In this document: positions 1,907 to 26,122 of the stretch, piece by piece
Position numbering within the stretch: position 1 is the first letter of the stretch
Layout of the letters: each line of letters starts with the position of its first letter
From: Parvularcula lutaonensis
Lineage (GTDB): Bacteria; Pseudomonadota; Alphaproteobacteria; Caulobacterales; Parvularculaceae
Direction of reading: 5' to 3'
NCBI RefSeq assembly: GCF_014651915.1
Contig: NZ_BMXU01000001.1
Location: 248,001-312,000 of the forward strand
DNA length: 64,000 nucleotides
Made by a program: the position numbers and the translations under genes
Notes under the pieces: model-generated
The model's input: the letters and a program-made list of their open reading frames with translations, nothing else
Database searches by the model: none
Told to the model about the DNA's origin: nothing

Positions 1907-2018
1907 TTTGTGGTGCTTTTGCTACATAAGGCCGGGCAAAATGCGAAACGGTCGAGCAGATGCGGCTGTGAATATGGTATGCGCCCTCCCAAGACTGCTC
2001 TTGAAACGGTAGCTGCCA

Positions 2019-5000
2019 ATGCATTTCGACCCCAAGGATATTGTCGAACACCTGCGCCACAACCTCGAGCGCTATCCCTACGGCAACGGCATCTCGGTTT
2101 TTCGCGAGCTTTTGCAGAACGCAGATGACGCGAAGGCGCATCAAGTTTCTTTGCACCTGCGACCCGGCTGGCCAGAGGCCTCGAACCCGCTCCTTCGGGG
2201 GCCTGGCCTTCTTCTCGTCAACGATGGTGAGTTCGATGAACGCTCGGCCACGGGCATGCAGACCTTCGGCGGTAGTGTGAAGGCACTCGATGACGCCTCC
2301 GTGGGGCGTTTCGGGCTCGGGCAGAAGTCGGTGTTCCATCTGTGCGATGCATTCGCCGTTGTTCCCGACGGCTTCGGCGCCCACGACGAGCCTTTCGTTG
2401 TGAACCCCTTCGAGGCCCTCGGACGCGAAGGCGACGACTGCCTCCGTTGGCCCAGGATCAATGATGAAGATGCGCGTCGCATCGCCTCGGAGGGCAAGCA
2501 ACTCCTGGATGCGCGCCGCCGCCTGAACATGTGGTTTCCACTCAGGAGAGAGGGGCTTCGCCCAAAGCCGACGAGTAAGGGGATCATTGCTTCGGACATA
2601 GCCCCCGAAAGTCTCGCACCGCTCGCCGATGAGTGGCGGATTGCAGAGATGGTCGCTTCTCTGCGCCATGTGCGCCGCGTGGTGGTCGGGATTGGCCCGT
2701 CAAACGCCGAAATCGACCGTGGTACGGCACGCGCGATGATCGGTTACACCGCTCAACCGGGTGATCGCAGTTTCGGCGGTCCCTTGGGCAGGGGGATTGC
2801 CTGTCTTGGGCGCGAGCGTCGCGCCACGGACGACTTTCGCCGAGACCTTCGCGGGTCGCAAAACTGGCCGCGCAGCCGAAACCGTGATACCGACGAGGAA
2901 GCGCCACAGAAGGCGACCCCGCACGGCGCTGCGATCCTCGTCGTGGATCCCGAAGGCATGGGCCAACTTCTAGCCGACTGGGCAGTGCTGCTGCCGGTGA
3001 CCGAAGCCTTTCCACCACAGGCGCATGACGGAATGGGCCGTCTGAAGCTGCTCCTCCACGGATGTTTCTTCGTAGACAGCGGCCGCAAGGCAGTGATCGG
3101 GCTCGATGAAGCAGGCCCGGCACCCACTGACCAAGCCCCTTTGGACGAGACAACGCTGCGCGCCGAGTGGAACCGCAGCGTTCGCGACCGCCTCGTCCTG
3201 CCGCTGATCCCGGCCGTCCTCTACGATGCGCTGCAAGAAGCGAAGGTTTCAGGCGAGGCGCTGGGCGCCGCCGTTAGGGCCCTCGCCGCGAGCGACTTCG
3301 GCCGCACCCATCGCGCGGCCATCGCAGCCCAGCATGCGCTCGCCAGAATTGTCGAGACAAGCAATGGAAATCTGCGCGTGCGCTGGCAACTTGTGGCGAG
3401 CACTGGCACGTTTCGGCCAATTCCTGCCCCCGATGCGCGTGGGCGTGTGGGGCTGGCGGATATCCTGCCAAATCTGACCGACTGGGCCACAGAACGAGGC
3501 GTTACGCTGGTTTGTGGCAGGGATGCGGTTCTGACGACGAAGGACCTCGTCTGGGAGGCCGACGAGATTGCGAAACTTCTCGAAGGGCTCGCGGCGGATT
3601 GCTTTTTGAGTGACACCCAGGTCCGGGTGCTGCGGGGTTTTTTGGAAACGGCCTGCACGAACCACGATCTGCGAGTTGCCGCATCGGGGCCGGTGCTCAA
3701 GCGACTACGCCAGGCGATGGCTTCGCCGCGCGCACTTGCACCGCATGAGCGCATAGCCAAGGTGCTCGAGGTCACTGCTCCTGATGGTGTCCTGCCTCTG
3801 CCTCCTGGCGCTTCCGAACGGTTCGTTCTGCGGGCGCTTGCCAGCGCGAAAGGGGCCCCAATCTGTCTGCCCCAGGAATGGTTGCCCGACGAAGTAAAGG
3901 GGGCAACCATTGGAGCACATGCGGTCCATTCGCTGATCGCCGCTCTGCAACCGCTGCTTGAGACGGATGGGCAGGCGGATTCAGCCAGTGCAGCAGCCCT
4001 CGCCATTCTGCGCCGCATCGAAAGCATTGAAGCCGCCTTGGAGCATCCAGAGTTGCCCGCGCTGCCGGTCGTCAAGGCTCTGGACGGGATCCGCACGCGT
4101 CGGCTGAGCCTCGCAGAGCTCTATGGGGCATCACGCGAACAGCGGCTCTTCCGTGACCATCCCCAAGCCCGCCGGCTTCTTGGGGTCGCTGCGAATGCGC
4201 TGCCAGAATCCGAGACATTCCTTCTGCCGAGCGCTGCCGCCAGTGCACTGCTGGACGCAAACGGCAGTGCGCCGACAAACGCCGTATTCAGATTGCATGA
4301 TCTCGATGCCAGGGCCGTCTGCGCGCTCGTGCGCAAGGCCGAGGCGCTCGGTCCGCCGCAGGCCCGCGCCAACCTCCTGAATGCCATTTTCAGCAATGAA
4401 CTGGAAAGTCGCGATGCCCTCCTCATGCTTGCAGCCGGGGATCGGCGTGCGCACGAAAACCGTTTCAGGCTCAATGCGTTGGGACAGAGCGCTCCGGCGC
4501 TGGACGCGCTGATCGCTCGACTCACGGCAAATTCGGAGCCAGTCATTTTGGTGCCGAGCGAGGTCATGGACACGCTCGACCGTGCCAAGGTGCGCCATCT
4601 CTCGATTGACACGCTGGAGGGCGCCTGGCTTGGTGACTTGCTCGTTCGCCATGCCGATGAACTGGCCACGCAGGGGCTTGATCACGCGGCCGTGGAGGCA
4701 ATTCTTTGCGCTGGCATTCCCGACGAGCATCTGAAACAGCTGCCGATCTTCCCCACGCGGCAAGGCGGCTGGGCGCGACCGGACAGCGTTTACCGCCCGA
4801 ACCCGGACTGGGCCGTCGCGAGAGGCATGACAGCCATTGTGCCGCTGCTTGGCGAATTCGAGGAACCGAGAGCACGGGAGCGTGCCGAAGCACTTGTCGA
4901 GCGCTGGTCACCCGAGGCGCAGATTGCCGTTTGTCTCGGCCAATCGGAACCCATTCGTTTTTCCACCGAGATCCTGGACGCTCTGGCGAGTATCGAAGCG

Positions 5001-8000
5001 CCAGATGCCGATCGCCTGCGCCGCGCGAAATGGCTGAGAGATCGCTCCGGCAACGCTTGGGCGCCGGAGGACGTGGTCGATCTCTCCGAAGATGTTCTGG
5101 TAGCTGCGCGCCGCGTGCTCGGTGACGATCTTCCGTTTCTTCCGGTGAGTGACATAGATCCGAGGATCCGGGAACACCAGGGCTTCGCGGACCTGCGGGA
5201 AAAGGGCGTTCTGCCCGACGACATGGGTTCCCTCGACCGGCTGCTCCTCATCATTGAGGAGGCAAGACCCGTCGCCTTTGTCGGCGGCGCAACAGATGAA
5301 CTGGTGCAAGCGCTCGCCCAGCTGGCCGATGCCGGCGTCGACCTGCCGCTGCCTGGTTGGCCTCTGCTTGCCGCCGCGCTGCGGGTGCTTCCACCAGATG
5401 CCGGGGAAACCCCGGCGCGCATGCTCGAGGTTGTTACCCGTTTCAAGGCGGCAGACCGCGCACAGCATAGAGACGTTGCCAACTGGCTTAACGAGCTGGC
5501 TGAAATTGCAAAGCAACGCCACGGCACCAACGAGGCAGCCGCTGCTCGCGTTGCCTATAGTGCGGCATTCAAGATGGTGGCCTCGTGGCCCGTCTCCGAA
5601 TTCCGGGCGATCATCGGTGGAGTTTTCGTGCCAACCGATGCAGGCAATTGGCGGCGGGGTGCGGAGGTGACTGCGCCTTGCGAAGGAATATCACGTGATT
5701 TTCTTCTTGCCGCCGACCTGGCCAAAGACTTGCCGCCCAACTCGGAACCCGCCGGACCTGAAGCAGGGCAGAGCGAAGGTGGCGAGGTCGACAAAGGCAA
5801 CAATTCGAACAGGGAAGAGTGCGTCAAAAGCCTGGTGTCGCTTCTCAAGCGAATGCGGGCCCAGGTACCGGAGCCGGCCTTGGCTTTCTTTGCAGCCGTT
5901 GTTTCCGAGCGCGATCAGTTTGAGAGGATTGCAAGCGATTGCTTCGCCTTGCCGCATGCAACTATCCAATCGATTCTGAATCGTCTGGATGAAATCGCCG
6001 GCAGCCTCGCTGAAGGCGACAAGGGAACCTCCTACCGCTTCGCGTTGCTTCGGAAAAATGCTGGCCTGCACTTCACTCTCATCACTGGCGGCGAGGTGAA
6101 GATCATGGCGCTCGACGGAAATGTGCGCAGTGCCCCGAGCGAGATTGATCAACCGTTTCAGGTTCTGGGCACGGGGCATTTGGAGGCTGTCGCTGGGAAC
6201 CGAGGCACGGTGATCCATGAGATCACCATTGCCGACCGTGAAGGGCGGATCACACTCAAGACGCTGGAGGACTTGACCCGGAATGTTGGGCCGCTGGTCT
6301 TGTGGCATTTCAAGCGCTGCGAAGACGCCATCCTCGAGGAGCTTCGGCAAGCGTTTCAGGTTGGACAAGCGACGGTCGAAGATGCCCGCGCGCGTCTCGA
6401 GGATCGGCTGCCACAAATCCTGGCTGAATTGAAGCCAGCCCCTGGGTCGAGGCTGCGTGAAGCCCTTGACCGCTACGAGACGCAAGAGCAGTCGATCCCT
6501 CCCGACAAGCGCGCAAAAGAACTGCCTGACGCGAAACGCGCTCTCTGGGATGAAGTCGCGTCCGAAGACTCCGCGACAGAATTGCTTGGTTTGATCCGCC
6601 AAGGTATCGAAAGTTACGGCTATGGCCCAGGACGGGTCGCGTTTGAACTTTTCCAGAACGCAGATGATGCAACCCTTCAGCACCCACCCGAAGGGCTGAG
6701 GGCGTTCAGGGTTGCATTCGAGAATGAGCGGATGCGCATTCTTCATTGGGGGCGGCTCATCAATCACCTCGGGCCATCTTCTGCGGAGGGAGAGCGCAGG
6801 GGCTGGCAGCGTGACTTGTTCAACATGTTGCTGATGAACCTGTCCGAGAAGCGCGAGGATGTGACTGGAAGATTCGGATTGGGGTTCAAGAGTGTCCATC
6901 TTATTGCATGCGAGGTGGAGATTGCTTCGGGGTTCATTGCCTGCAGGATAAAGGGCGGCATGCTCCCAGAGGTATGGGAGGGCGGGCAACAACACTCCCT
7001 TGATGCTAGCCGGAATGATCGACGCGCCACGATAATCTCTCTGAAGATAGATCCCGACCCCGAAAGAGAGGCGCAGGAAGCGCATGGAGTTTTCGCTCGC
7101 TGTGCGCGCTGGCTTCCGGTGACAGCGCGGGCGATCCGGGAAGTTCACCTCGGCGGTCACCGCTACGCTGCGCGCCTCAAAGAGACGGGCATGCAGGGGA
7201 TCCGGCATGTCGTCTTCGAGGGTGTTGAGCCGGGCCAGGCGCTGGCACTGTCGCTGGACGACAATACGACGCTTTACCTGCCCCTCGATACTGATGGACC
7301 TCGATCGCTGCCCGAGGAAATGCCTAGGCTCTGGCTTCTCGCGCCGCTCGAAGAGGAAATTCGTGCCGGATGGCTTTTGAACTCGTACAGTTTCCGTGTC
7401 GATCCCGGGCGCGGCCGGCTTGCAGGAAGTGTTAAGGAGCGCGCAGAACTCTTCGAACGCCTGGGTAGAGCGCTCGGACATCGGCTGGTTGAACTTTTCG
7501 ATCTTCTGGATCGTGACTGGGCCGGCTTTGCAGAGCCTGCCGGACTTTCCGAACGAAACGCCGCATCGGGACGGAAGCTGTTTCTTGAACGCCTCGTCAG
7601 TCTTTTCAAGGAGGATGTATCCCATGGTGGTGGGGACGACCGGCTTGAGACGAAGCTTCACCACGAAGGCGGGCTCAGACATCTCTTCTGCGAGCGCGAG
7701 GCCTTTCCGACCAGGCTGCCGGCACCCTTTGAACCTTTCCTGCGGGCCGATCAGGTGCGCTGGAAGCTCGCCGGCGGCCTCGTCGAGCCGGGCCGTGTAG
7801 AACGGCTCATCGGCTGGCGGTCGGTTGCCGATATCGCACAATCGGCGGTCAGCTCGGAGATGGCGACCGTGTTCGAGCACCTAGGCTTTCCCGCTCCACA
7901 GCGATTTGACGCGGCAATGCTCGTCAGCATGGAGATAGGTGCGGACAAACGGGCGGATCCTGAGAGCGCCGCACGGCTTGGGTCCTTCCTTGATCAGCCA

Positions 8001-9407
8001 TTCGTCGAAGCCTTGGATTGGAAGGAGCGGCAGGAACTGCTCAAGGCGGCGGCTGGTGCGAAGTTCCTCATGGCGGATGGCCAATGGCGGGAGGCTCGTC
8101 TGGTGCCGCGGGATGCAGCGGATGCGGACGAAGAAGAGCGACGCATACTCGCCTTCGCTCCGAACGAGGACGTGGCCGACGATTCCTATTTCGGCGACGC
8201 CCTGTCCTTCTACCGTCTGGCTGCCCGTCAAAGCGGATATCAGCGCACCGCTGAAACCTTTGCCCGCTGGGCACATCAAGTCACGGAACCCGCTGCCCAG
8301 CGGGCGCTGCTCACCTATGTTGCCGAGGGCAGCCAAGGCGAACGACTCGGTAACCTATTGGCCACAAAGCGGCCGCACTGGCTGCCCGCCGAGGCGGAAG
8401 AATTCCGGCAAAGCGAGCTGGCAAAGGGGTTTGATGACGATGCACGAGGTCGCCTGATGCCCATCCTTTATCCATCTCTGAGGCGCATGATCGGTTCGGG
8501 CCGCTGGCTGTCGCCCGACCCGGGCTCCCCAGAGATCGGGAACACCCCGCCCGATCCGGCAGAAGAACTCGCCCGAATTCGCGACTGGTGGCTAAGAGAT
8601 CACGTTGACCAGCGAGAAGACTATGACAATCGCATCTGGCCAAACGGGTTCAGGCCAGGGAGCTTGCGCGACCTGGAAGCCGAAGACAACCGGGTCGGGT
8701 GGTTCACCTTCTTTGCTCTTGGGATTTTCCGGACTCTGCCTTGGAACAATGAGGGTGCCCACAAAAGCTTCGTGGAATCCGCCGCCCGAGCGGGCTGGTG
8801 GGACGAGATGGCGACCGCCCGCCTGCCGGAAGACCCGACGCCATGGCTGAAGCGCCTGGAAGACTTTGCATCTCCCGCCGCTTGGAAAATCGATTTTCCG
8901 CAATGGCGCAGAACGATAGCCGATCTCTATGCCCTTGCCCGCTGGCTGCCGGATTACGCCGATGCCTTCCGGCTCCTGCCCAGGGTGGTGGAGCGCGAGG
9001 GACAGGTGGCGCTAAGCGATATCTGGCGCCTCAGCTACGCGCCCATCTGGCAGAGGCGCGGCCTGGAAGGGGCACCGCTGACGCAAAGCCTTGGACTCGG
9101 CGCGAACTGGATGATCCGCGAGGCGATCCGGCACGGCTTGTGGGGCGAAGACGAGGCTGCCCGGATGCACACTTATGCCTGGGCGGCGACGGGGCGCGTG
9201 CGTCGGCTGTTTGCGGAACGGCTTGGACACCCCTTGGGCGAGCGGGGAAACATGGACCTTTCGAGAGACATCTACAGTTTCGTCTCCCAACATCTCGGCC
9301 CGGATGTCACATTCCTGGGCGATCTGGACCTCCCGCTTCAGCTTTGGGAGAGTGGAGAAGACGACGCTACCGGACAGCCCGTGTACAGCGACGAGGCAAG
9401 GGGATGA
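2019..9407 (+). CDS. Giant protein with two sacsin/HSP90-like (GHKL) ATPase modules, putative defence
   Basis: This 2462-residue protein carries a Bergerat-fold module twice. Module 1 lies at about residues 1-260: N-box FRELLQNADDAK with Asn34, then LLLVNDGEFDE, then lid motif GRFGLGQKS at 96-104. Module 2 starts at about 1530: ELFQNADDAT with Asn1547 and GRFGLGFKS at 1617-1625. Between and after them are long alpha-helical regions with no motif I recognise. Sacsin-type repeats are known from the ataxia protein sacsin and from large bacterial ATPases found in defence islands. In module 2 the usual D-x-G or N-G of the second motif reads HWGRLIN, so nucleotide binding there may be altered. The gene overlaps the SNF2 helicase by ATGA at 9404, so both are probably translated together. 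The role as an anti-phage protein is inference from context. Confidence 0.85.
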   Translation: MHFDPKDIVEHLRHNLERYPYGNGISVFRELLQNADDAKAHQVSLHLRPGWPEASNPLLRGPGLLLVNDGEFDERSATGMQTFGGSVKALDDASVGRFGLGQKSVFHLCDAFAVVPDGFGAHDEPFVVNPFEALGREGDDCLRWPRINDEDARRIASEGKQLLDARRRLNMWFPLRREGLRPKPTSKGIIASDIAPESLAPLADEWRIAEMVASLRHVRRVVVGIGPSNAEIDRGTARAMIGYTAQPGDRSFGGPLGRGIACLGRERRATDDFRRDLRGSQNWPRSRNRDTDEEAPQKATPHGAAILVVDPEGMGQLLADWAVLLPVTEAFPPQAHDGMGRLKLLLHGCFFVDSGRKAVIGLDEAGPAPTDQAPLDETTLRAEWNRSVRDRLVLPLIPAVLYDALQEAKVSGEALGAAVRALAASDFGRTHRAAIAAQHALARIVETSNGNLRVRWQLVASTGTFRPIPAPDARGRVGLADILPNLTDWATERGVTLVCGRDAVLTTKDLVWEADEIAKLLEGLAADCFLSDTQVRVLRGFLETACTNHDLRVAASGPVLKRLRQAMASPRALAPHERIAKVLEVTAPDGVLPLPPGASERFVLRALASAKGAPICLPQEWLPDEVKGATIGAHAVHSLIAALQPLLETDGQADSASAAALAILRRIESIEAALEHPELPALPVVKALDGIRTRRLSLAELYGASREQRLFRDHPQARRLLGVAANALPESETFLLPSAAASALLDANGSAPTNAVFRLHDLDARAVCALVRKAEALGPPQARANLLNAIFSNELESRDALLMLAAGDRRAHENRFRLNALGQSAPALDALIARLTANSEPVILVPSEVMDTLDRAKVRHLSIDTLEGAWLGDLLVRHADELATQGLDHAAVEAILCAGIPDEHLKQLPIFPTRQGGWARPDSVYRPNPDWAVARGMTAIVPLLGEFEEPRARERAEALVERWSPEAQIAVCLGQSEPIRFSTEILDALASIEAPDADRLRRAKWLRDRSGNAWAPEDVVDLSEDVLVAARRVLGDDLPFLPVSDIDPRIREHQGFADLREKGVLPDDMGSLDRLLLIIEEARPVAFVGGATDELVQALAQLADAGVDLPLPGWPLLAAALRVLPPDAGETPARMLEVVTRFKAADRAQHRDVANWLNELAEIAKQRHGTNEAAAARVAYSAAFKMVASWPVSEFRAIIGGVFVPTDAGNWRRGAEVTAPCEGISRDFLLAADLAKDLPPNSEPAGPEAGQSEGGEVDKGNNSNREECVKSLVSLLKRMRAQVPEPALAFFAAVVSERDQFERIASDCFALPHATIQSILNRLDEIAGSLAEGDKGTSYRFALLRKNAGLHFTLITGGEVKIMALDGNVRSAPSEIDQPFQVLGTGHLEAVAGNRGTVIHEITIADREGRITLKTLEDLTRNVGPLVLWHFKRCEDAILEELRQAFQVGQATVEDARARLEDRLPQILAELKPAPGSRLREALDRYETQEQSIPPDKRAKELPDAKRALWDEVASEDSATELLGLIRQGIESYGYGPGRVAFELFQNADDATLQHPPEGLRAFRVAFENERMRILHWGRLINHLGPSSAEGERRGWQRDLFNMLLMNLSEKREDVTGRFGLGFKSVHLIACEVEIASGFIACRIKGGMLPEVWEGGQQHSLDASRNDRRATIISLKIDPDPEREAQEAHGVFARCARWLPVTARAIREVHLGGHRYAARLKETGMQGIRHVVFEGVEPGQALALSLDDNTTLYLPLDTDGPRSLPEEMPRLWLLAPLEEEIRAGWLLNSYSFRVDPGRGRLAGSVKERAELFERLGRALGHRLVELFDLLDRDWAGFAEPAGLSERNAASGRKLFLERLVSLFKEDVSHGGGDDRLETKLHHEGGLRHLFCEREAFPTRLPAPFEPFLRADQVRWKLAGGLVEPGRVERLIGWRSVADIAQSAVSSEMATVFEHLGFPAPQRFDAAMLVSMEIGADKRADPESAARLGSFLDQPFVEALDWKERQELLKAAAGAKFLMADGQWREARLVPRDAADADEEERRILAFAPNEDVADDSYFGDALSFYRLAARQSGYQRTAETFARWAHQVTEPAAQRALLTYVAEGSQGERLGNLLATKRPHWLPAEAEEFRQSELAKGFDDDARGRLMPILYPSLRRMIGSGRWLSPDPGSPEIGNTPPDPAEELARIRDWWLRDHVDQREDYDNRIWPNGFRPGSLRDLEAEDNRVGWFTFFALGIFRTLPWNNEGAHKSFVESAARAGWWDEMATARLPEDPTPWLKRLEDFASPAAWKIDFPQWRRTIADLYALARWLPDYADAFRLLPRVVEREGQVALSDIWRLSYAPIWQRRGLEGAPLTQSLGLGANWMIREAIRHGLWGEDEAARMHTYAWAATGRVRRLFAERLGHPLGERGNMDLSRDIYSFVSQHLGPDVTFLGDLDLPLQLWESGEDDATGQPVYSDEARG

Positions 9408-12037
9408 CCGATTTGCACGAGGATCGCCCCGTTCGCCACCCCCGCCATGGGGAGGGCCGGGTCGTCGCTGACCTTGGCGAAACCGTCGTCGTCCGCTTCG
9501 GCGCCGACATTGAACAAGTCGAACGCGACGAGCTGGTGGTGGTTCGCTCGCTTGCCGAAGCCGTGGCCCAGGGCGTGCCCGATAATCCGCTCGAGGTTCT
9601 CACCCGTGCGCAAGCACTGCTCATCCGCTCGGTCAACGACCAATGGGGCGTATTCTCGCGCTCACGCGTGCAGCTCCTGCCGCATCAGCTTTGGGTTTGC
9701 CGGCAGGTCACCCAGCACTGGCCGACGCGTTGGCTGGTGGCTGACGATGTCGGTCTTGGCAAGACGATCGAGGCAGGACTGATCCTGCTGCCGCTGATGG
9801 CCACAGGACGCATTCGGCGGCTCTTGATCCTCGCTCCGGCCCGTTTGGTCCCGCAATGGCGGGCTCGGCTGAAGTCCATGTTTGACATTCGCCTGCAGGA
9901 ATACACGCGGGAGCAGGATCGCGGGAAGCTCTCCTTCTGGGACACGGCTTCGCAGGTCGTGGCCTCGTTTCATACGCTGCGTCAGCCCGCGGTCCGTGAA
10001 CGTCTGCTGCAAGCCGAATCCTGGGACATGGTGATGGTGGACGAGGCACATCATTTCCAGGCGCAAGAACGCATTTCCACGCAGACATACGACCTGCTTC
10101 GTGAACTCCAGGAAAGGGACCGAATACAGTCGCTCGTGATGTTTACCGGCACGCCGCATCGTGGAAAGGATTTTGGGTTTCTGGCGCTCATGCGTCTCGT
10201 GCGGCCTGATCTTTTCGATCCCAAGAAGCCCGTGCAGGATCAACTCCCCCAGCTCCGCGAGGCAATGATCCGCAACAACAAGGCGCTGGTGACCGACCTT
10301 GAGGGCCGAAAGCTCTTTCAGCCCGTGCGCACCAAGACCGTGGACTATGCCTACACGCCTGCTGAGGCCAGGTTTTATGAGACGATGAGCGATTTCATTC
10401 TCGATGGCCGAGCCTATGCGTTGAGCCTGACGGGGCGCGAGCAGTCGGCACGGATGCTGTTGCTCATTGCCCTGCAGAAGCTGGCGGCAAGCTCGATTGC
10501 GGCGATCCGGAGCGCATTGGAACGTCGAAGGGCGATGCTTGCCGATGCCGCTGATCGAGTGTCGGAAAAAATGCTGGAGGAAACCGAAACACTTGACGAA
10601 GCCGCCGAGCAGGAGGAGGCCGCGCCAAGTCAGATCGCCCTCACGCTCATCCAGGGCGAGGTCGAACGGCTCGACGAACTCATCGCGTTGGCGCGTGAAA
10701 TCAGAACGGAATCAAAGATTGAACGGCTCATCGAACTCATAGAGACTGAACTGCCGAAGAGCGAGCCGCTGCTACTGTTTACCGAGTACAAGGCGACGCA
10801 GGCTCTTGTGATCGCCGCGCTCGAAGCCCGTTTCGGACAGGGCTGCGCCGGTTTCATCAATGGTGATGAACGGTTGGCCATTCGCGAACCGGATGGCTCT
10901 GTCGACGTGCGCACACTTTCTCGCGAGGTCGCTGCTGACGAGTTCAATTGTGGTCGGACACGTTTTCTCGTTTCGACCGAAGCCGGAGGCGAGGGGATCG
11001 ACTTGCAGGAGCGCTGCGCCAGCCTGGTACATGTCGATCTTCCCTGGAATCCTATGCGCCTGCACCAGCGCGTGGGGCGGCTCAATCGGTATGGGCAAAA
11101 GCGGGCGGTAAGCGTGTTTCTGCTCCGCAACCCGGCAACTGTCGAGGCCCGCATCTGGGCACTGCTGGAGGAAAAACTCGCCCGCATCCAGGCCGCGCTT
11201 TCTGCTTCGATGGAAGAGACTGAAGACATCGCGCAGCTCGTGATCGGTATGCAGGGCGGGCGCTTCTTCGACGAGATCTTTGCTGAAGGCGTGAACGACG
11301 TTGCCCGAAACCGAGGGGAAAGACTGGAGGAATGGTTCGATGCACGCACGGCTACATTTGGAGGGCGCGACGCGATAGAAACCGTTCGCTCGATGCTTGG
11401 TCAGGTTGCCCGGTTCGATTTTGGTGCGGTCGGTGGCAGCATGCCACAGACTGACCTACCCGATCTTGAGCCGTTCTTTCGGAACGCCATGATGCTGATG
11501 GGTCGGCGCGTCAAGCAAGGCGAGGACGGGCTATCGGTTGTCACGCCGGAAGAATGGAAGCACAGCCTTGATCTGAAGCCGCGTTACGGTGGGCTGAGCT
11601 TTGATCGCGCGCTGCCAGGAAACGAACGCATGATCCGTCTTCTCGGGATTGGCCATCCCCTTCTTGACCATGCACTCGAAGAGGCAGCTCGGCGGCCCGC
11701 TCTGATCGGTCGCATCAGGGGTCTTGAACGGCCCATCTTGCTTGCGGGTGTCGAGGACGAGGTCACGGGAACGGGGGGTAATGTGCACCGTATCGTCGTC
11801 GGGTTGCAAAGGCCTGGATCCGCTGGGCGAACTTGTTTCGCCGACTGGGAAGTGCTTGTTCAACTGAACAAATGTCGTTTTAAGGACGACTGGGCTGCGC
11901 CACTTTCGACGATGGAAGTCGCTGAGACACGAGCGTTGTTCGAGATCCTGCCTGATGCGATATCCACTCTGGGCCTGCCGTTTCGTCGGCCAAAGGCGAT
12001 ACCGCTTCTGAGCCTGCTCCCAGAACCTGGAAAATGA
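9404..12037 (+). CDS. RapA-like SNF2 helicase/translocase, putative defence partner
   Basis: This is an 877-residue superfamily 2 ATPase. The N-terminus (VRHPRHGEGRVV...VVVRF) resembles the small Tudor-like barrel of RapA. Motif I is DDVGLGKTIEAG with Lys120, motif II is DEAH from Asp213, motif III is FTGTPHRG, motif V is GGEGIDLQ, and motif VI is QRVGRLNRYGQ from Gln555. The frame is open further upstream, but that stretch is the reading-frame shadow of the sacsin-like gene. ATG 9404 overlaps that gene's TGA and is preceded by AAGGGG, which fixes the start. SNF2 ATPases translocate on double-stranded DNA, and DISARM DrmD is a related defence helicase. Here the partner is the sacsin-like ATPase rather than DISARM genes. 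No nuclease domain is visible in either protein. Confidence 0.9.
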   Translation: MTDLHEDRPVRHPRHGEGRVVADLGETVVVRFGADIEQVERDELVVVRSLAEAVAQGVPDNPLEVLTRAQALLIRSVNDQWGVFSRSRVQLLPHQLWVCRQVTQHWPTRWLVADDVGLGKTIEAGLILLPLMATGRIRRLLILAPARLVPQWRARLKSMFDIRLQEYTREQDRGKLSFWDTASQVVASFHTLRQPAVRERLLQAESWDMVMVDEAHHFQAQERISTQTYDLLRELQERDRIQSLVMFTGTPHRGKDFGFLALMRLVRPDLFDPKKPVQDQLPQLREAMIRNNKALVTDLEGRKLFQPVRTKTVDYAYTPAEARFYETMSDFILDGRAYALSLTGREQSARMLLLIALQKLAASSIAAIRSALERRRAMLADAADRVSEKMLEETETLDEAAEQEEAAPSQIALTLIQGEVERLDELIALAREIRTESKIERLIELIETELPKSEPLLLFTEYKATQALVIAALEARFGQGCAGFINGDERLAIREPDGSVDVRTLSREVAADEFNCGRTRFLVSTEAGGEGIDLQERCASLVHVDLPWNPMRLHQRVGRLNRYGQKRAVSVFLLRNPATVEARIWALLEEKLARIQAALSASMEETEDIAQLVIGMQGGRFFDEIFAEGVNDVARNRGERLEEWFDARTATFGGRDAIETVRSMLGQVARFDFGAVGGSMPQTDLPDLEPFFRNAMMLMGRRVKQGEDGLSVVTPEEWKHSLDLKPRYGGLSFDRALPGNERMIRLLGIGHPLLDHALEEAARRPALIGRIRGLERPILLAGVEDEVTGTGGNVHRIVVGLQRPGSAGRTCFADWEVLVQLNKCRFKDDWAAPLSTMEVAETRALFEILPDAISTLGLPFRRPKAIPLLSLLPEPGK

Positions 12038-16459: not shown

Positions 16460-17191
16460 TTAGGGGAAGCATTTGAGTCCTCCCAACTTTGGGCGGATGA
16501 TTTCGAAGGCGCGGTTGGGCTGGCCGGGGCGCAACCGCGACAGTGCAATCGGCCGCGCCGTCAGATCGGCCAGCTGAAGCCCCGAGGAGTTCGCGGCCTT
16601 CGACACGAAGACTCGCTGGAAGTCGAAGCGGCTGAAGTCATGTCGGCGGTAACCCCAGTGGCTGTTGTTGGAAGCGATGCGGCGAAATTCGAGCTCGAGT
16701 TCCCGGTCCTCCTTCGCGCCCCGGCTCTCGAAGACGATGTGCACGGTCTTTCCATGCTGCCGTTCCCGGGTGAGCATCTCGTGCAGCCGTTCCATGCAGA
16801 AATGCATGGCGATCTCGTAGGGGTTCCAGGGATTGACGTATTTCGCCCGATGCGCCTCTTTGTCGATGACCGAAGCGAAGATCGTCATAGGCGCGGCCTC
16901 GATCAGGCCGTTGAGCCCGTCGAAGAACCGCTCCCGCAGCGCCCGATCGGTGCGCAAGATGCCAAAGGGGCCGAGGCTCTTGCGGATTTCGTGCTCGTGC
17001 AGCACGACCGAGTCGTGCCCCCAGATGTCGAACTTGAACTGCTGCATCGCGGGCACGATGGCGCCGTGATAATCGTCCTTGCGCATGACGCAAAAGACCA
17101 GCGCGAAGACGGGATACTGCGGGTCGATGCTGACCATCCCGTGATCGCCGCTTTCGTCGGCATAGACGATGAAATCGCAGTAGTCAGGCAA
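16460..17191 (-). CDS. DUF3800 domain protein
   Basis: This 243-residue protein begins MPDYCDFIVYADESGDHG, the YxDESG signature of DUF3800, and has a later GLQLADLTA segment typical of the family's C-terminal part. DUF3800 is thought to adopt an RNase H-like fold, which suggests nuclease or nucleic-acid handling, but no activity is established. The gene overlaps the full-length hsdS by eight bases (17184-17191), so it belongs to the hsdM-hsdS transcript. A role accessory to restriction is inference from this coupling. Confidence 0.85.
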   Translation of the reverse strand: MPDYCDFIVYADESGDHGMVSIDPQYPVFALVFCVMRKDDYHGAIVPAMQQFKFDIWGHDSVVLHEHEIRKSLGPFGILRTDRALRERFFDGLNGLIEAAPMTIFASVIDKEAHRAKYVNPWNPYEIAMHFCMERLHEMLTRERQHGKTVHIVFESRGAKEDRELELEFRRIASNNSHWGYRRHDFSRFDFQRVFVSKAANSSGLQLADLTARPIALSRLRPGQPNRAFEIIRPKLGGLKCFP

Positions 17192-18392
17192 CCGGCGCCT
17201 CCGTCCTGACCCGCCATTCCCCCGTCAGGAGCTTCTGCATCAGCCCGCGTTTCTGGCGGGTGAGGGCTTCGATTTCGGCGTCGATGAGGGTGAGTTCGGC
17301 GTTTGAGGTGTTTACAACCTCCGCGATGGCCGCCTGTTCATCCGGGTCCATCGGAAGACGCAACTTGCCTTCAAGGAACTGGCTGTTGGTCACGGCGATG
17401 GTGTTCTTTGCGCCTTTCTGAACGAGGGGGCGCAGGTAGTTCTTGGTGGCCACGGGCGACTCGAACAACGCGTCAAGGATCACGCCGAGCGCCTGGGTCC
17501 TGGGGGTGAACACGCCGTAGAGCGGCGAGACGATCACCTCACGGTCGATCTTGCTTTGCTTGATGATCCCGAGGGGGAAATCCCCCGTCGGGCTCTTCGT
17601 GTAAACGATGTCGCCGGGCAGGACGCGGTTGTAATGGTCCGTGCTGGCAGCCGAGAAGGACCGGCCGAGATGCTCGATCTGGTTCACCAGCCCCTTGTGG
17701 ACGGAAACCGAATAGACCTCCTCCTTGCCGGTGGACTTGAGGCCGTGTTCATGCAGCACCTCGCTGAGCCGCACTTCGCGCCATTCGCCGGAAAAACCGG
17801 GCAGCCGCGCCTTGCCGGTAAACAGATGCGTGCGGAACCAGGTGCGCAGGCGCGCCTTGGCGGTGCGCAGCGTGGTGAGGGCCTCCAGCGCGGCGTCCCA
17901 GGTCCGCAGGATCTCGGCGATCTTGCGCTGTTCGGGGAGCGGGGGGAGAGGGATGGGCGTGGACTTCAATAACTCGGTATCAAGCCGCCCAGTCCCGTGT
18001 CCTGCACTATCGACGTGACGGAGAATGTCTTCTTTCCGTGCCGTCAACGCTATGGCTAGGAAATCTGGCTCGACGTTCGGTTTCGGGACCAGTGCTTTGA
18101 TGTCCTGATTGAAGGCCACCGACCTATCGCAAATCGTAACTGGTAGGTCCTTGAATAACCCCATGCCCCGGACGAGCACCAAGACCGATCCCGGCGGAAC
18201 GACGCGAACCGTCGCGGCCCCTTTTCCGGTAAGCGACAGCCCAACGCCGTTCAGGCGGATGCCCTTCATATCCTTGACCGTGACCCAAGGGATCGTGCCG
18301 CCCCAATAATCCTCTCGTGCCTTATTTGGCGTTCCACCGGAATGGATCGCCGCCACGTCTGAAATCGGCGCCGTTGTCCACCCCTCACGCAT
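17184..18392 (-). CDS. hsdS: Type I restriction enzyme, S (specificity) subunit, full length
   Basis: This is a 402-residue HsdS with two target-recognition domains. The first starts TTAPISDVAAIHSGGTPNKA and ends at the central helix LPEQRKIAEILRTWD. The second runs from about REVRLSEVLHEHGLKS to PDEQAAIAEVVN and a final helix. HsdS sets the bipartite DNA target for HsdM and HsdR. The frame is open far upstream inside hsdM, but the protein pattern begins at ATG 18392 (MREGWTTAP), which overlaps the hsdM stop at 18385-18387. A half-length S gene precedes hsdM, so this locus encodes two S polypeptides. Confidence 0.92.
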   Translation of the reverse strand: MREGWTTAPISDVAAIHSGGTPNKAREDYWGGTIPWVTVKDMKGIRLNGVGLSLTGKGAATVRVVPPGSVLVLVRGMGLFKDLPVTICDRSVAFNQDIKALVPKPNVEPDFLAIALTARKEDILRHVDSAGHGTGRLDTELLKSTPIPLPPLPEQRKIAEILRTWDAALEALTTLRTAKARLRTWFRTHLFTGKARLPGFSGEWREVRLSEVLHEHGLKSTGKEEVYSVSVHKGLVNQIEHLGRSFSAASTDHYNRVLPGDIVYTKSPTGDFPLGIIKQSKIDREVIVSPLYGVFTPRTQALGVILDALFESPVATKNYLRPLVQKGAKNTIAVTNSQFLEGKLRLPMDPDEQAAIAEVVNTSNAELTLIDAEIEALTRQKRGLMQKLLTGEWRVRTEAPVA

Positions 18393-19902
18393 CAACACCC
18401 AGCTCCCGCAGATAGCCCGCCATCTTCGCCCGCACCTCCGCAAGCTCGGCCTCGATCCGGTCGATCTCTTTCTGCACCGCGGCCACGTCGATTTCCTCTT
18501 CCGGCTCGAAGGTGTCCACATAGCGGGGGATGTTGAGGTTGAAGCCGTTCTCGGCAATCTCCTCGGGGCTGGCGCGGTGCGAATAGCGCTCGACCTCGGC
18601 GCGCTCGCGATACGTCCGCACGATCTTCTCGATATGCGCGTCCTCCAGCAGGTTCTGCTTCTTGCCGGGGGTGAACTCGCGGCTGGCGTCGATGAAGAGC
18701 ACGTCGCGCTCGCCCTCGCGCGCGCCGCCTTCCTCGCGCGCCCGGTCAAAGACCAGGATGGCGACGGGAATGCCGGTGGTGGTGAAGAGGTTGGCGGGCA
18801 GGCCGATGACGGCATCGAGCAGGTTTTCCTCGATGAGCTGCTGCCGGATGCGCCCCTCGGCCCCGCCGCGGAACAGCACGCCGTGCGGCACGATCACCGC
18901 CACCCGGCCCGACTGGCGCTTGGCGGTCTCGATCATGTGGGTGATGAAGGCATAATCGCCCTTGGATTTCGGCGGGATGCCGCGCCAGAACCGGCCCCAG
19001 GGGTCGGCCTCGGCATTCTCGTGCCCCCATTTGTCAAGGCTGAAGGGCGGGTTGGCCAGCACCACGTCGAAGCGCATCAGGTGATCGCCCTCGACCAGCG
19101 CGGGGCTATTGAGCGTGTCGCACCATTCGATGCGGGCGGCGTCGCGGGCGTGCAGGAACATGTTCATCCGCGCCAGCGCCCATGTGGCGCCGTTCACTTC
19201 CTGCCCGAAGAGGGCGTAGTTGTCCGAGCCGACCTCCTGGCTGGCCCAGATCAGGAGCGAGCCCGAGCCGCAGGCCGGGTCGCAGATGGTGTTGCCGGGC
19301 TTGGGCGCGGCGAGCTTGGCCAAGAGGCGCGAGACCGGCGCGGGGGTGTAGAACTCGCCCGCCTTCTTGCCGGCGTCGGAGGCGAATTTCGAGATCAGGT
19401 AGATGTAGCATTCGCCGATGATGTCCTCATTGACCCGGCTGGGGCGCAGGTCAAGCTCGGGCTTGGCGAAGTCCTCGAGCAGGTTCTTGAGGCGGCGGTT
19501 GCGGTCTTTCGGGCGGCCGAGATTGGCCTCGGAGTTGAAGTCGATATTGCGGAAGACGCCTTCGAGCTTGGCGCGGTTGGCGTCCTCGATCTTTTCCAGC
19601 GCGATGTTGATGAGCTCGCCGATATTGGGCTCGTTCCGCTGGTTGTAGAGGTCGTAGAAGCTGGCGCCCTCGGGCAGGATGAAACGTTCGCGTTCCAGCC
19701 GGCGGCGGATGCGGATTTCGTCCTCGCCATATTGCTTGCGGTAGGCTTCGGCGTGGTCGTTCCAGAGGTCCGAGATGTACTTCAGGAACAACATCACCAG
19801 GATGTAGTCCTTGTACTGTGCCGGATCGACGGCGCCGCGGAAGGTGTCGCAGGCGGCCCATGCGGCGTTGTTCACCTGGTCCTGGGTGATCTGGTCGGTC
19901 AT
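18385..19902 (-). CDS. hsdM: Type I restriction enzyme, M (N6-adenine methylase) subunit
   Basis: This 505-residue HsdM has the N-terminal helical domain (LFLKYISDLW near residue 40), the SAM-binding motif I DPACGSGS at 208-215 and the catalytic motif IV NPPF at 284-287, as expected for an N6-adenine methylase. It methylates host sites and forms the M2S1 core with HsdS. Its start overlaps the half-HsdS gene by four bases (19899-19902) and its end overlaps the full hsdS by eight, so all three are translationally linked. All motifs appear intact. Confidence 0.95.
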   Translation of the reverse strand: MTDQITQDQVNNAAWAACDTFRGAVDPAQYKDYILVMLFLKYISDLWNDHAEAYRKQYGEDEIRIRRRLERERFILPEGASFYDLYNQRNEPNIGELINIALEKIEDANRAKLEGVFRNIDFNSEANLGRPKDRNRRLKNLLEDFAKPELDLRPSRVNEDIIGECYIYLISKFASDAGKKAGEFYTPAPVSRLLAKLAAPKPGNTICDPACGSGSLLIWASQEVGSDNYALFGQEVNGATWALARMNMFLHARDAARIEWCDTLNSPALVEGDHLMRFDVVLANPPFSLDKWGHENAEADPWGRFWRGIPPKSKGDYAFITHMIETAKRQSGRVAVIVPHGVLFRGGAEGRIRQQLIEENLLDAVIGLPANLFTTTGIPVAILVFDRAREEGGAREGERDVLFIDASREFTPGKKQNLLEDAHIEKIVRTYRERAEVERYSHRASPEEIAENGFNLNIPRYVDTFEPEEEIDVAAVQKEIDRIEAELAEVRAKMAGYLRELGVDA

Positions 19903-20492
19903 CGGGCAATGTCCTTGTGTTCGGCGGTACAGGCGGCCTGCTGAAGAATGGCGCTCATGTATTGGGTGCGTCTTTCGGCGAGGTCCTGCAAGAGTTGCAT
20001 TTCACGCGCCGCGAGTGCGCTGAGCGTGACGATCCGCCGTTGCGCGTGGAGATCCGGCACCGGGATGTCGAGGCGTTCCAGCGCACGCATTGGGATCATT
20101 CTGAGGCTCGTTCCCTGGGCCTCGGCCGCAAGTGCGCGTTGCGCGACTGGTTGATTGATGGCCCAGGCGAGGAATTCCGGCAAGATGCGCGCGCGGTCGG
20201 GGCGGATGACGACCAGCGGTACGATGACGGCGATGGGCTCGGGAAGGTCGTAGGGAATTGCGACCGCGGTGTTCGGCTCGCCGCGCGAACGAAACACCAC
20301 CTCACCTCCGCTCACGAGGTATCGGTCGGGAAGCTCGCCCAAGTCGTATCGCTGCAGGTCCGCCGCCGGGATATCGCCACTGGCGCCCACGTCGCGCAAC
20401 TGCAGCGCGGGAGTGCCGCCATCAGCCCGCGGCACGAGCCTGCCGCGCGCGGTGTATCCAGAGTGAATGTCAGATAGCTCGGAGAGCCGCAT
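19899..20492 (-). CDS. Half-length type I specificity (S) subunit
   Basis: This 197-residue protein has one target-recognition domain (MRLSELSDIHSGYTARGR...) and one conserved helix (IPVPDLHAQRRIVTLSALAARE), so it is half the normal HsdS length. Half-S proteins can dimerise and recognise a symmetric target, or mix with another S subunit. It is the first gene of the hsd transcript, with AGAGG as ribosome site inside a hairpin. No sign of a second domain is seen in the DNA upstream, so it looks like a natural half subunit rather than a broken gene. Confidence 0.82.
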   Translation of the reverse strand: MRLSELSDIHSGYTARGRLVPRADGGTPALQLRDVGASGDIPAADLQRYDLGELPDRYLVSGGEVVFRSRGEPNTAVAIPYDLPEPIAVIVPLVVIRPDRARILPEFLAWAINQPVAQRALAAEAQGTSLRMIPMRALERLDIPVPDLHAQRRIVTLSALAAREMQLLQDLAERRTQYMSAILQQAACTAEHKDIAR

Positions 20493-20550: not shown

Positions 20551-20562
20551 CTAAGATTAGTG

Positions 20563-20579
20563 CTGTAATGGAGTTACAG
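20563..20579. promoter_or_regulatory. Second CTGTAA/TTACAG dyad upstream of the hsd promoter
   Basis: CTGTAA (20563-20568) and TTACAG (20574-20579) are separated by five bases. Read on the minus strand the site starts CTCTGTAA, the same eight bases that open the dyad at 20500-20523. Paired sites flanking a promoter suggest binding by a dimeric repressor, but no regulator gene was identified nearby. Confidence 0.4.
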
Positions 20580-20955
20580 AGAAAATCGCAAGCGCTGCCT
20601 TTCCCACTCCACCGGAAACGGCTCCAGCAACCTCTCCAGCGTCACCTCCGGCCCCTGCCGCCCGTCCAAGATCGTCTCGGCGATATCCGGCGCGAGCAGC
20701 GTGAGGCGCAACGCGGGTCATGTAGGAGGGCGCGATTCCCTCGCACTCGGTCAGTTCAGAAATCGACGCGAAGTGGCCCGACTCGAGCATGCGCTTCCAG
20801 CGGAAGGCGCGGGCGAGCGCCTTGACGAGGGTGTTGTCGGTCCGGCGCTGAAGCGGCGCACCGTCGGGCAGCGGTACCTCCTTCCGCCCGCCGCGTTTGA
20901 CCACGCGGAACGGAACATACAGCGTGATGGTGTCGGGTGTGGCTCTGGTGGTCAT
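20574..20955 (-). pseudogene. Frameshifted recombinase-associated hypothetical gene
   Basis: The gene starts MTTRATPDTITLYVPFR and reads sensibly through RTDNTLVKALARAFRWKRML and IAPSYMTRV near 20715. There the frame breaks. Continuing in the next frame gives RLTLLAPDIAETILDGRQ, GPEVTLERLLEPFPVEWERQ and a TAA at 20574-20576, a natural continuation with the same helix pattern. The break looks like loss of two bases. Intact relatives, as I recall them, sit directly behind serine recombinase genes in alphaproteobacteria, as this one does behind the relic at 20952. In the unshifted frame the tail becomes low-complexity (GRAAGAGGDAGEVAG), which supports a real frameshift. Confidence 0.7.
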
Positions 20956-21497: not shown

Positions 21498-22733
21498 TCA
21501 GTCTTCCGGTGATGAAAAAGCTGTCCCGAAGCGCCCTAGCAAGATGTCGAGTTGCAACCGTGCCTTTTCCGCCTCTGCTCGATTGGTGATGAGCGATTGT
21601 TCGGTATCCAGAAGGTTTCGCCTGGTCTGGACCAACTCACGCAAGGTGACTGCGTGCTCTTGATGCCCGCTCTCGAGCCTGATCAAAGATTGCCTGATCG
21701 CGCCGGACCCGTCTCTGGCGAGTTTTTCTTGTAACGTAGCGTTCTCCGCCGCCGCGCGCAGCATGGCCACGCGCTGTTCACCGTCGAGCACCACGCGGCG
21801 GAGAGCAGCTTCCGCTGAGGCCGCGCGGGCTGATGCGGCGGCGGAGGTGGCTGCTCTTGCTCGTCCTCCGATGGGTATGGACACAGACGCCACAACCGCG
21901 GTTTCCCTGCCGCCGAACTCGTTGCTGAAACCAACGCTCAAAGTGGGATCAGGCAGGGTTTCGTATCGCTGACGTCGACGGAGCACCCTTCCGTATTCGG
22001 CTGTGACCCGAGCCAGTTCCGTGTCAATCAGGCGAACGCTCTCAGAAGCCGTGGCGGTGTGGCTGGTCAGATCGTCATCGACGTCTTCCAGATCACTGAC
22101 GATCAGTGTCGGGAACGTACTGAAGAGCATTTTTTTCTGGCGCTCCGCGTTGAGCGCCATACGCAGGGCATCGGAACGAAGCTGGCTGGCGTAGGCCAGG
22201 GCGATCTCGGCGTCGACCTGCCGGCTGCCGCCGATTTCTGCTCCCGACAATTCCATACTAGCGAGCTGTTCGGCTTCCTCAGCGGCTTGCTGGAGGAGCT
22301 CCGCAAGTTGCTGATCGCGACGCCAGGCGGTCCAGAGGTCAACGAACCTCAGGGCCAGGTCCTGATATGCTTTTTCGTATTCCAGTCGGGCGCGGTCATA
22401 TTCAAGACTGGCCAGCTGACGGTCGAGGCCCCTCTTGCCGGGGAGGCGAACCGTTCGACTGACATCCATTCGCCATTCGGAATATGTCGCGTCGGGCGCC
22501 ATGCCGTTTTCAACGGTCCGTTCACCAACGCTTCCACTCAGGGCTACTTCATAGGGCCCCACTCTCCGGACCCGGGCGAGAGCCTCGGCTTCTTCCCGTT
22601 GGGCCTTGGCCTCCTCCAGGGCTGGGGACGTCACAATTGCCTCGGTAACAACGTCGCGAGAGGGGAATGCCGTTGCATTGGACGTCAGTGAAACGATCAG
22701 TGACGTCATCGCAATCCAGAATGGGGTTTTCAT
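21498..22733 (-). CDS. CusC/CzcC-like outer-membrane efflux protein (TolC family)
   Basis: This 411-residue protein has an N-terminal signal peptide (MKTPFWIAMTSLIVSLTSNATAF) and the long alternating helices of TolC-family proteins: a heptad-rich stretch at about 35-60 (EEAKAQREEAEALARV), RLPGKRGLDRQ, and a second helical hairpin near the C-terminus (RDGSGAIRQSLIRLESGHQEH). A trimer would form the outer-membrane exit duct of a tripartite metal pump. Its start overlaps the DUF3240 stop by four bases (22730-22733). It is the last gene of the operon. Confidence 0.85.
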   Translation of the reverse strand: MKTPFWIAMTSLIVSLTSNATAFPSRDVVTEAIVTSPALEEAKAQREEAEALARVRRVGPYEVALSGSVGERTVENGMAPDATYSEWRMDVSRTVRLPGKRGLDRQLASLEYDRARLEYEKAYQDLALRFVDLWTAWRRDQQLAELLQQAAEEAEQLASMELSGAEIGGSRQVDAEIALAYASQLRSDALRMALNAERQKKMLFSTFPTLIVSDLEDVDDDLTSHTATASESVRLIDTELARVTAEYGRVLRRRQRYETLPDPTLSVGFSNEFGGRETAVVASVSIPIGGRARAATSAAASARAASAEAALRRVVLDGEQRVAMLRAAAENATLQEKLARDGSGAIRQSLIRLESGHQEHAVTLRELVQTRRNLLDTEQSLITNRAEAEKARLQLDILLGRFGTAFSSPED

Positions 22734-23041
22734 GACAAGATCCCGAATTCAAGCACGGGCTCGGTCCAGTAGGACAGGCCAGGTCTGTTGAGCTTCGCCT
22801 GCACCTCATCGAGGATCTGTGCCACGTTCCCTTCGTTCAGGACCAGCTGGAACATGCTGTTTTCTGCCATGCCCGAGACCTTTTCAGATGCGGATGTGAG
22901 GGCTGAGGGTTGGCCGTGACCAAGGATCGATATTTCCGAAAAACCACTTCCGCCTGCAGGACCTTCAAGAAGGATGTCCCGAACGTGCCGGCGAATGGAT
23001 CGTGGACAGACGATCGTCAGCTTGCATAGGGATTTTGCCAT
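22730..23041 (-). CDS. DUF3240 family protein
   Basis: This 103-residue protein starts MAKSLCKLTIVCPRSIRRHVRD and ends in a PII-like beta-alpha pattern (FQLVLNEGNVAQILDEVQ). DUF3240 proteins are regularly found inside Cus/Czc-type RND operons and are thought to have a ferredoxin-like, PII-related fold. A role in metal sensing or pump modulation is inference. It overlaps the pump gene by 25 bases and the next gene by four. Confidence 0.78.
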   Translation of the reverse strand: MAKSLCKLTIVCPRSIRRHVRDILLEGPAGGSGFSEISILGHGQPSALTSASEKVSGMAENSMFQLVLNEGNVAQILDEVQAKLNRPGLSYWTEPVLEFGILS

Positions 23042-26118: not shown

Positions 26119-26122
26119 AGGC

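Follow-up and report, generated by a model that had tools for sequence, protein, structure and literature searches.

The window analysed here, a 64,000-nucleotide stretch of the alphaproteobacterium Parvularcula lutaonensis (contig NZ_BMXU01000001.1, positions 248,001 to 312,000), carries on its forward strand two coupled genes, the first encoding a giant protein with two sacsin-type ATPase modules (protein 1) and the second an SNF2/RapA-type helicase (Table 1). The ATG of the helicase gene overlaps the stop codon of the first gene by four bases (ATGA). Called mechanically, the open reading frame (ORF) of the helicase opens earlier, with a GTG at 8798 (1079 amino acids, aa), but four aligned homologues begin at about the ATG at 9404. 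Both frames are intact over 10 kb. Since the frames and their order are conserved across phyla, a chance origin of either is, judged by sequence comparison, excluded. The initial annotation had described two genes coupled by an ATGA overlap at 9404, two sacsin/HSP90-like ATPase modules in a chain of 2462 residues, and an 877-residue RapA-like SNF2 helicase; all three descriptions are borne out by the data below.

Table 1. Coordinates of the genes and features discussed (window positions, unless a locus is named).
Feature	Position	Strand	Basis or source
Gene 1, double-sacsin (GHKL/Hsp90-type) protein, 2462 aa	2019..9407	+	ORF, Pfam, NCBIfam, relatives
Gene 2, SNF2/RapA-type helicase of DrmD-like family, 877 aa	9404..12037	+	ATG start, profile matches
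ATPase module 1, sacsin SR1-like GHKL, residues ~4-235	2028..2723	+	SACS match, model, motif counts
S5-like transducer after ATPase 1, residues ~236-425	2724..3293	+	Structure matches, conservation
ATPase module 2 and middle domain, residues ~1521-1893	6579..7697	+	Model matches, motif counts
Nearly all-helical C-terminal region, residues ~2040-2462	8136..9404	+	DSSP of model, conserved columns
Superfamily 2 (SF2) helicase core of gene 2, residues ~87-600	9662..11203	+	Pfam matches
Relic of 3' end of RNase_H_2 + superfamily 1 (SF1) helicase (TM0106-type) nuclease gene	1936..1997	+	blastn, tblastn of nuclease C-termini
Double-sacsin chain with DarT, DarG-like gene next	L059:12537-19074, L060:12540-18708, L072:4906-11440		Cyanobacteria

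The Pfam family SACS matches the N-terminus of protein 1 (residues 7-115; 80.9 bits against a cut-off of 32.8) and is the only Pfam domain found there, with no DnaJ or HEPN domain, while the NCBIfam model P_loop_sacsin matches two stretches. The chain was modelled with AlphaFold over residues 1-1150 (mean predicted local distance difference test, pLDDT, 88.6; predicted template modelling score, pTM, 0.65) and 1480-2462 (89.6 and 0.65, respectively). Each model contains a GHKL module and an S5-like transducer, in the order seen in MORC proteins, an arrangement common to other GHKL families. Module 1 (model residues 5-234) aligns with human sacsin SR1 at Z 15.7 (196 aligned, root-mean-square deviation 3.0), in a tie with MORC3 (Z 15.0, 296 aligned, model residues 4-413); the matches to MORC3, topoisomerase VI-B, GyrB and Hsp90 span model residues 4 to 425 or so. 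Its residues E30, N34, D37, G96, G99 and G101 are kept in 50 of 51 full-length rows, the last having a gap, and K103 in all 51, with position 69 being Asp in 41 rows and Asn in 9. H347 and R356 of the transducer are invariant (51/51).

The second model (mc3e4881c0505) matches Hsp90 and TRAP1 (Z 15.5), and the scores of ParE and GyrB come within 1 Z of these. In module 2, E1543, N1547 and R1798 are invariant (51/51); both modules keep the catalytic Glu and Asn, apart from the one gap in module 1. Motif II of Hsp90 holds the nucleotide-binding Asp; here HWGR replaces this usual Asp motif, and its Arg is again present in 51/51 rows. The C-terminal helical region has conserved R2367, E2368 and R2371. 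Alignments from the structure searches fell mostly on the GHKL modules (model ranges 12-488 and 4-425) and barely covered the middle and the helical end. Going by conservation only, no hidden nuclease was seen in the pair, as there is no D..D/ExK or HNH pattern among columns conserved at ≥90% (51 sacsin rows) or ≥95% (60 helicase rows). Apart from the ATPase and helicase motifs, the conserved columns consist largely of W, P, G, L, F, R and Y; the few acidic ones are scattered (such as E2040, E2368 and D2437 in protein 1; E607, D608 and D684 in the helicase).

The helicase has an SNF2-related domain (SNF2-rel_dom, residues 111-276) and a Helicase_C domain (438-564), both above the Pfam cut-off, and its closest solved relative is RapA. 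Motifs I (GxGKT), II (DEAH) and VI (HQRVGR) are kept in 60/60 aligned rows. The PADLOC model of the DISARM protein DrmD (PDLC02634) matches it nearly over its full length (788 bits, residues 8-824 of 877), whereas the cut-offs of the NCBI DrmD equivalogs are missed (251 vs. 610 bits for NF038317 and 163 vs. 950 bits for NF038318, respectively); the PADLOC BrxHII model gives 254 bits. A gap in scores (1082 vs. 382 bits) sets off the family to which the window helicase belongs. The same genome holds another SNF2 helicase about 88 kb upstream (L132:9151-12663; 1170 aa), 27% identical to that of the window.

A genome scan with five sacsin queries gave at least 74 loci, in a sample biased towards relatives of the window protein. 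With plasmid and viral loci, there were 80 (L005-L084) with a sacsin match among the matches listed, a scope that holds for the locus counts below, and 67 of these have at least 1500 bases downstream. In 60 of the 67, the sacsin gene has a family helicase on its own strand no more than 1 kb downstream; the distance is at most 250 bases in 56 of these pairs, and 22 have a four-base overlap, so that the adjacency noted in the initial annotation is a recurrent one. The 60 paired loci fall in 11 named phyla (nine loci being unassigned or from other collections), and Deinococcota, on plasmids, bring the count to 12. No family helicase follows in the other seven: L005 and L031 have a shortened sacsin, L059, L060 and L072 are fusions to DarT, L063 has another C-terminal extension, and L082 is a 193-aa sacsin fragment that lies 7.8 kb from a helicase and was not counted as a pair.

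Searches that started from the helicase gave the same picture. On plasmids, 6/6 places at E≤1e-60 (five records) were paired, as were 27/27 strong matches in 25 genomes chosen for holding the pair, one of these copies being new (L116/L128). Across 398 genomes of the phylum and 292 of cyanobacteria, strong matches came from the window, the already known L079 genome and two new genomes (L126 and L127), all of them paired; the sacsin is in pieces in L127 and L128. The identity matrices of the two proteins are correlated (r = 0.892, 49 loci, 0/2000 permutations), and both have the same nearest neighbour in 32 of the 49 loci. The sacsin is rare, occurring in 2/299 genomes of the order, window genome included. 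No match to protein 1 was found in 50,697 phage records. Of the viral contigs, one carries an intact pair (loci L084 and L150 both lie on it), and there were two short matches to the sacsin; six other viral-contig helicase loci had neither a sacsin match nor a strong family helicase. The pair is a conserved two-gene unit, its members nearly always together in many distant bacteria.

The surroundings of the pair are rich in defence genes. At 25 loci, 86 neighbour proteins (of 124) match 299 PADLOC models at 1e-10, compared to 7 models for 84 control proteins (of 105) from 11 other stretches of the same genomes, although this tally counts models, many of them redundant, rather than proteins, which weakens it as an argument for defence. 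Because of this redundancy, and because the most frequent model matches only four neighbour proteins, the neighbourhoods show a variety of defence genes with no single fixed partner. A gene like PDC-S68 (a PADLOC candidate; RecD-like, about 1250 aa, split in L006) adjoins the pair in L006, L014, L030, L064, L067 and L075; McrBC lies near it in L018, L021 and L027; DISARM drmA/drmB adjoin it in L026 and L081 and drmB/drmC in L009, with a possible 136-aa piece of DrmB in L007. Phage integrases account for 4/86 neighbour proteins. The enrichment expected in the initial annotation is thus seen (299 vs. 7 models) and makes it probable that the pair is a defence system. A plasmid of Deinococcus wulumuqiensis carries a second sacsin-SNF2 pair (L172:6813-17918), with a gene for a NucS-domain endonuclease seven bases after it.

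The three fusion loci show a different partner. In L059, L060 and L072, the double-sacsin chain is divided between two genes, as it is in several other cyanobacteria. It carries DarT (PF14487) in its C-terminal part (E 3.2e-23, 4.5e-25 and 3.4e-23, respectively), and no family SNF2 helicase lies within the locus DNA examined. The gene that follows encodes a DarG-like macrodomain protein. DarTG is an anti-phage toxin-antitoxin pair. In a FastTree tree of module 2 (local support, midpoint root), the DarT loci form a clade (support 100) whose sister is a set of four helicase-paired cyanobacterial rows (100 for the joint clade of 7 rows) and which lies among other helicase-paired rows. Given this position, a change from helicase to DarT would be the simpler reading of the tree. 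One further genome (G830) matches the sacsin-DarT protein over its whole length. In L063, a C-terminal extension stands in place of the helicase (sacsin residues ~2120-2299), with a GENVE..GGDLE..MEVKF pattern that looks PD-(D/E)xK-like; its match to NOV_C/DUF3883 (18.2 bits, E 0.011) falls below the cut-off of 22.1.

A further gene appears to have been lost in front of the window pair. In blastn comparisons, homology to L023, L031, L034 and L055 starts abruptly at position 1935 (73-78%) and runs into the sacsin gene. The relic reads AKCETVEQMRL over 1936-1968, the same residues as at the end of the nuclease in L023, L031 and L005, and VNMVCALPRL in another frame over 1968-1997. The intact gene, present in six near relatives (L010, L013, L023, L031, L034 and L055; in pieces in L031), encodes about 1100 aa with RNase_H_2 and SF1 helicase domains and overlaps or abuts the sacsin gene, its end lying no more than about 11 bases from the start of the latter; a Haematobacter relative is annotated as a TM0106 family RecB-like nuclease. 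From these alignments, the window pair is most likely the remainder of a three-gene operon. The initial annotation saw no nuclease, which holds for the window genes, but the end of a nuclease-helicase gene persists. No homologue was found within the 20 kb upstream or in the genome itself, the latter in one search without a positive control, and L011, of the window's own clade, has no such nuclease in 2.4 kb upstream.

The nuclease is not peculiar to the pair. The nucleases of L005, L010, L013 and L018 are 76-80% identical to one another, compared to 30-46% for their sacsins, and the nuclease occurs in 60 plasmid records at E≤1e-80, compared to five for the helicase, for which reason we reject it as an obligate, dedicated partner. 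Of seven plasmid nuclease regions examined out of the 60, four have other payloads behind the nuclease: an AAA ATPase and a restriction endonuclease, McrBC-like when compared with L018, directly after it in L165 and L168; an exonuclease and an AAA ATPase, which can be read as SbcCD, in L170; and, separated from it by one small gene, a DUF3883 protein in L166. L167, L169 and L171 have no clear payload, and a WYL protein is annotated adjoining or near the nuclease in 6/7 regions. On the strength of the identities, the plasmid records and the other payloads, we take the nuclease to be a generic head module that is usually accompanied by a WYL regulator and has exchangeable payloads. A head of WYL regulator, often a HEPN gene, and TM0106-type nuclease recurs in L010:1164-6255, L018:356-9999, L005:1-9758 and L165-L171, followed by the sacsin pair, McrBC-like genes, TmtA, exonuclease plus ATPase, DUF3883 or nothing.

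Elsewhere in the window, the opposite strand carries type I restriction-modification (R-M) genes (HsdR, HsdM and HsdS) between about 13.1 and 20.5 kb, as the initial annotation had it. Its placing of the pair between mobile-element remnants finds no backing: the window contains no tRNA, no tyrosine integrase match turned up on the contig up to 100 kb away from it (no search was made for transposases or serine recombinases), and ORFs 7-759 and 20557-20955 match no Pfam family. Within the R-M locus (16460-20492, minus strand), two S-like genes (543 and 197 aa) flank hsdM, the longer of which probably starts further in, and an ORF at 16460-17191 sits between hsdR and hsdS. Beyond it, RND efflux genes occupy 21498-26220 on the minus strand (AcrB-type, DUF3240 and outer-membrane efflux protein).

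How does the pair relate to described systems? Protein 1 scores 74.7 bits (best stretch, residues 21-111) against models of TmtA, the Tiamat defence protein and a sacsin-type GHKL ATPase. These models span 1302-1782 positions, but the listed best stretches fall only in the ATPase modules, so that protein 1 is no full-length TmtA; in Haematobacter, a full TmtA (794 bits over about 1120 aa) is encoded by a gene of its own next to a sacsin relative. Eukaryotic sacsin shares with protein 1 the SACS domain and the SR1 fold and differs in the DnaJ and HEPN domains. The helicases BrxHI and BrxHII of BREX and ArmA of ARMADA, the last called BrxHII-like in the accessible part of its description (PMC12458937), are also of the RapA-type SNF2 class, but pglZ, brxC and a methyltransferase were not seen among the 10 window ORFs scanned. 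A similar theme is seen in the MORCs and paraMORCs, for which the accessible text of Iyer et al. (2008, PMC2292703) predicts operons of a GHKL plus S5 module with superfamily II helicases, in one group SWI2/SNF2 helicases; those have one such module, often with nucleases or methylases, whereas here two GHKL modules share one chain of about 2500 aa.

No description of a bacterial double-sacsin with an SNF2 helicase was found among the papers listed from the searchable literature, which leaves out most subscription papers and bioRxiv proper, nor any paper there that joins 'sacsin' and 'DISARM'. Defence operons of GHKL plus SF2 proteins are known as a theme, and the double-sacsin core is undescribed in that literature. 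The claim of the initial annotation that the pair matches no named system stands for PADLOC-DB 2.0 and the searchable literature as regards the pair, but not for the helicase by itself, which scores as DrmD.

We propose, tentatively, that the pair is the core of an undescribed defence system with a division of labour, the giant protein acting as an ATP-driven sensor or switch and the SNF2 protein as its output. A long and largely helical middle region would connect the two GHKL clamps, of which ATPase 1 resembles sacsin SR1 and MORC and ATPase 2 resembles Hsp90. On an infection cue, the sacsin clamp would close and engage or license the SNF2/DrmD-like motor, which would load on foreign DNA, translocate and block replication or expression. 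Some lineages would add a nuclease gene, of the TM0106 type upstream or, in one Deinococcus locus, with a NucS domain downstream, and in one cyanobacterial clade the motor would have been swapped for the DNA ADP-ribosyltransferase DarT and a DarG-like antidote. A DNA-modifying toxin can take the place of the partner, which suggests a controlling role for the sacsin part, as a sensor or switch with exchangeable DNA-acting outputs. Control of an effector by a GHKL protein has a precedent in VcSduA, where the catalytic Glu of the GHKL domain is needed and its mutation abolishes defence, according to the accessible part of that study (PMC12137116). More speculatively, the double-sacsin could possibly be a general infection-sensing platform, a two-headed Hsp90/sacsin with SNF2 as output in 12 phyla, DarT plus antidote in cyanobacteria and perhaps a nuclease-like domain in a Thiotrichaceae relative.

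Several observations weigh against this scheme. Adjacency and matching trees are signs of coupling, not of contact, and many of the paired loci are metagenome bins. Two weaker helicase relatives (385 and 375 bits; G512/G665, L130 and L131) have no sacsin nearby, and it is the gap in scores that places them outside the family. The DarT fusions are one clade (three loci and one genome), possibly a single event, placed by FastTree with a midpoint root. ATPase 2, without the usual nucleotide-binding Asp, may not cycle like Hsp90, and the nuclease relic may leave room for decay of the window copy.

The main rival explanation, which we consider rather unlikely, reverses the roles: the SNF2 motor would sense, patrolling DNA and stalling where phage DNA is replicating or unprotected, and the effector would be the double-GHKL protein, a MORC/SMC-like clamp that loops or compacts DNA and silences it. 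Module 1 does resemble MORC2/MORC3 and topoisomerase VI-B about as well as sacsin, MORCs with superfamily II helicases in R-M operons have been proposed to loop DNA (PMC2292703, accessible text), and the Hachiman helicase is called a sensor in the available portion of its paper (PMC12278908). However, a DarT toxin stands where the helicase is absent, suggesting that the sacsin controls the output. It is less probable still that the pair works only together with a nuclease, the copy in the window being a non-functional leftover of a nuclease-sacsin-helicase operon. The relic, the close junctions in the six relatives and the failure of the genome search to find a homologue are consistent with such a loss, but 53/60 paired loci have no such nuclease in the DNA examined (flanks are often short), L011 has none in its 2.4 kb upstream, both window frames have stayed intact, and the nuclease travels widely with other payloads.

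Two further explanations are, in our judgement, very improbable. In one, the pair has no part in defence and serves as a chaperone and motor for proteostasis or for RapA-like recycling of RNA polymerase. Of the solved structures, that of RapA is indeed nearest to the helicase, and sacsin, like the chaperone Hsp90, has been described as a chaperone (PMC3710099, accessible part), but the rare, patchy distribution of the sacsin and the presence of the pair on plasmids, near integrases and in defence-rich neighbourhoods speak for something else. The other, which we find no easier to accept, makes the pair a branch of DISARM, a DrmD variant with a giant partner that works with DrmA/DrmB. The PADLOC score and the drm genes beside the pair in L026, L081 and L009 fit this idea, but drmA or drmB (E≤1e-20) adjoins only 3/60 paired loci, the L007 piece apart, the NCBI cut-offs are missed, and the standing partner of the helicase is the double-sacsin protein. 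A PADLOC scan of the 10 window ORFs (0-22.7 kb) found no drmA, drmB or drmC, in line with the view of the initial annotation that DISARM has other partners.

The pair is thus a testable candidate defence system found in 12 phyla. Only two pieces of it are picked up by PADLOC-DB 2.0, the helicase as DrmD and the ATPase portion of protein 1 as TmtA-like. With toxicity as an easy read-out, the DarT fusions allow one to ask directly what the giant GHKL protein senses, and the finding bears on the role of bacterial sacsin-type proteins. If the platform interpretation is true, these proteins would represent a class of innate sensor in which chaperone-type clamps control an attack on DNA.

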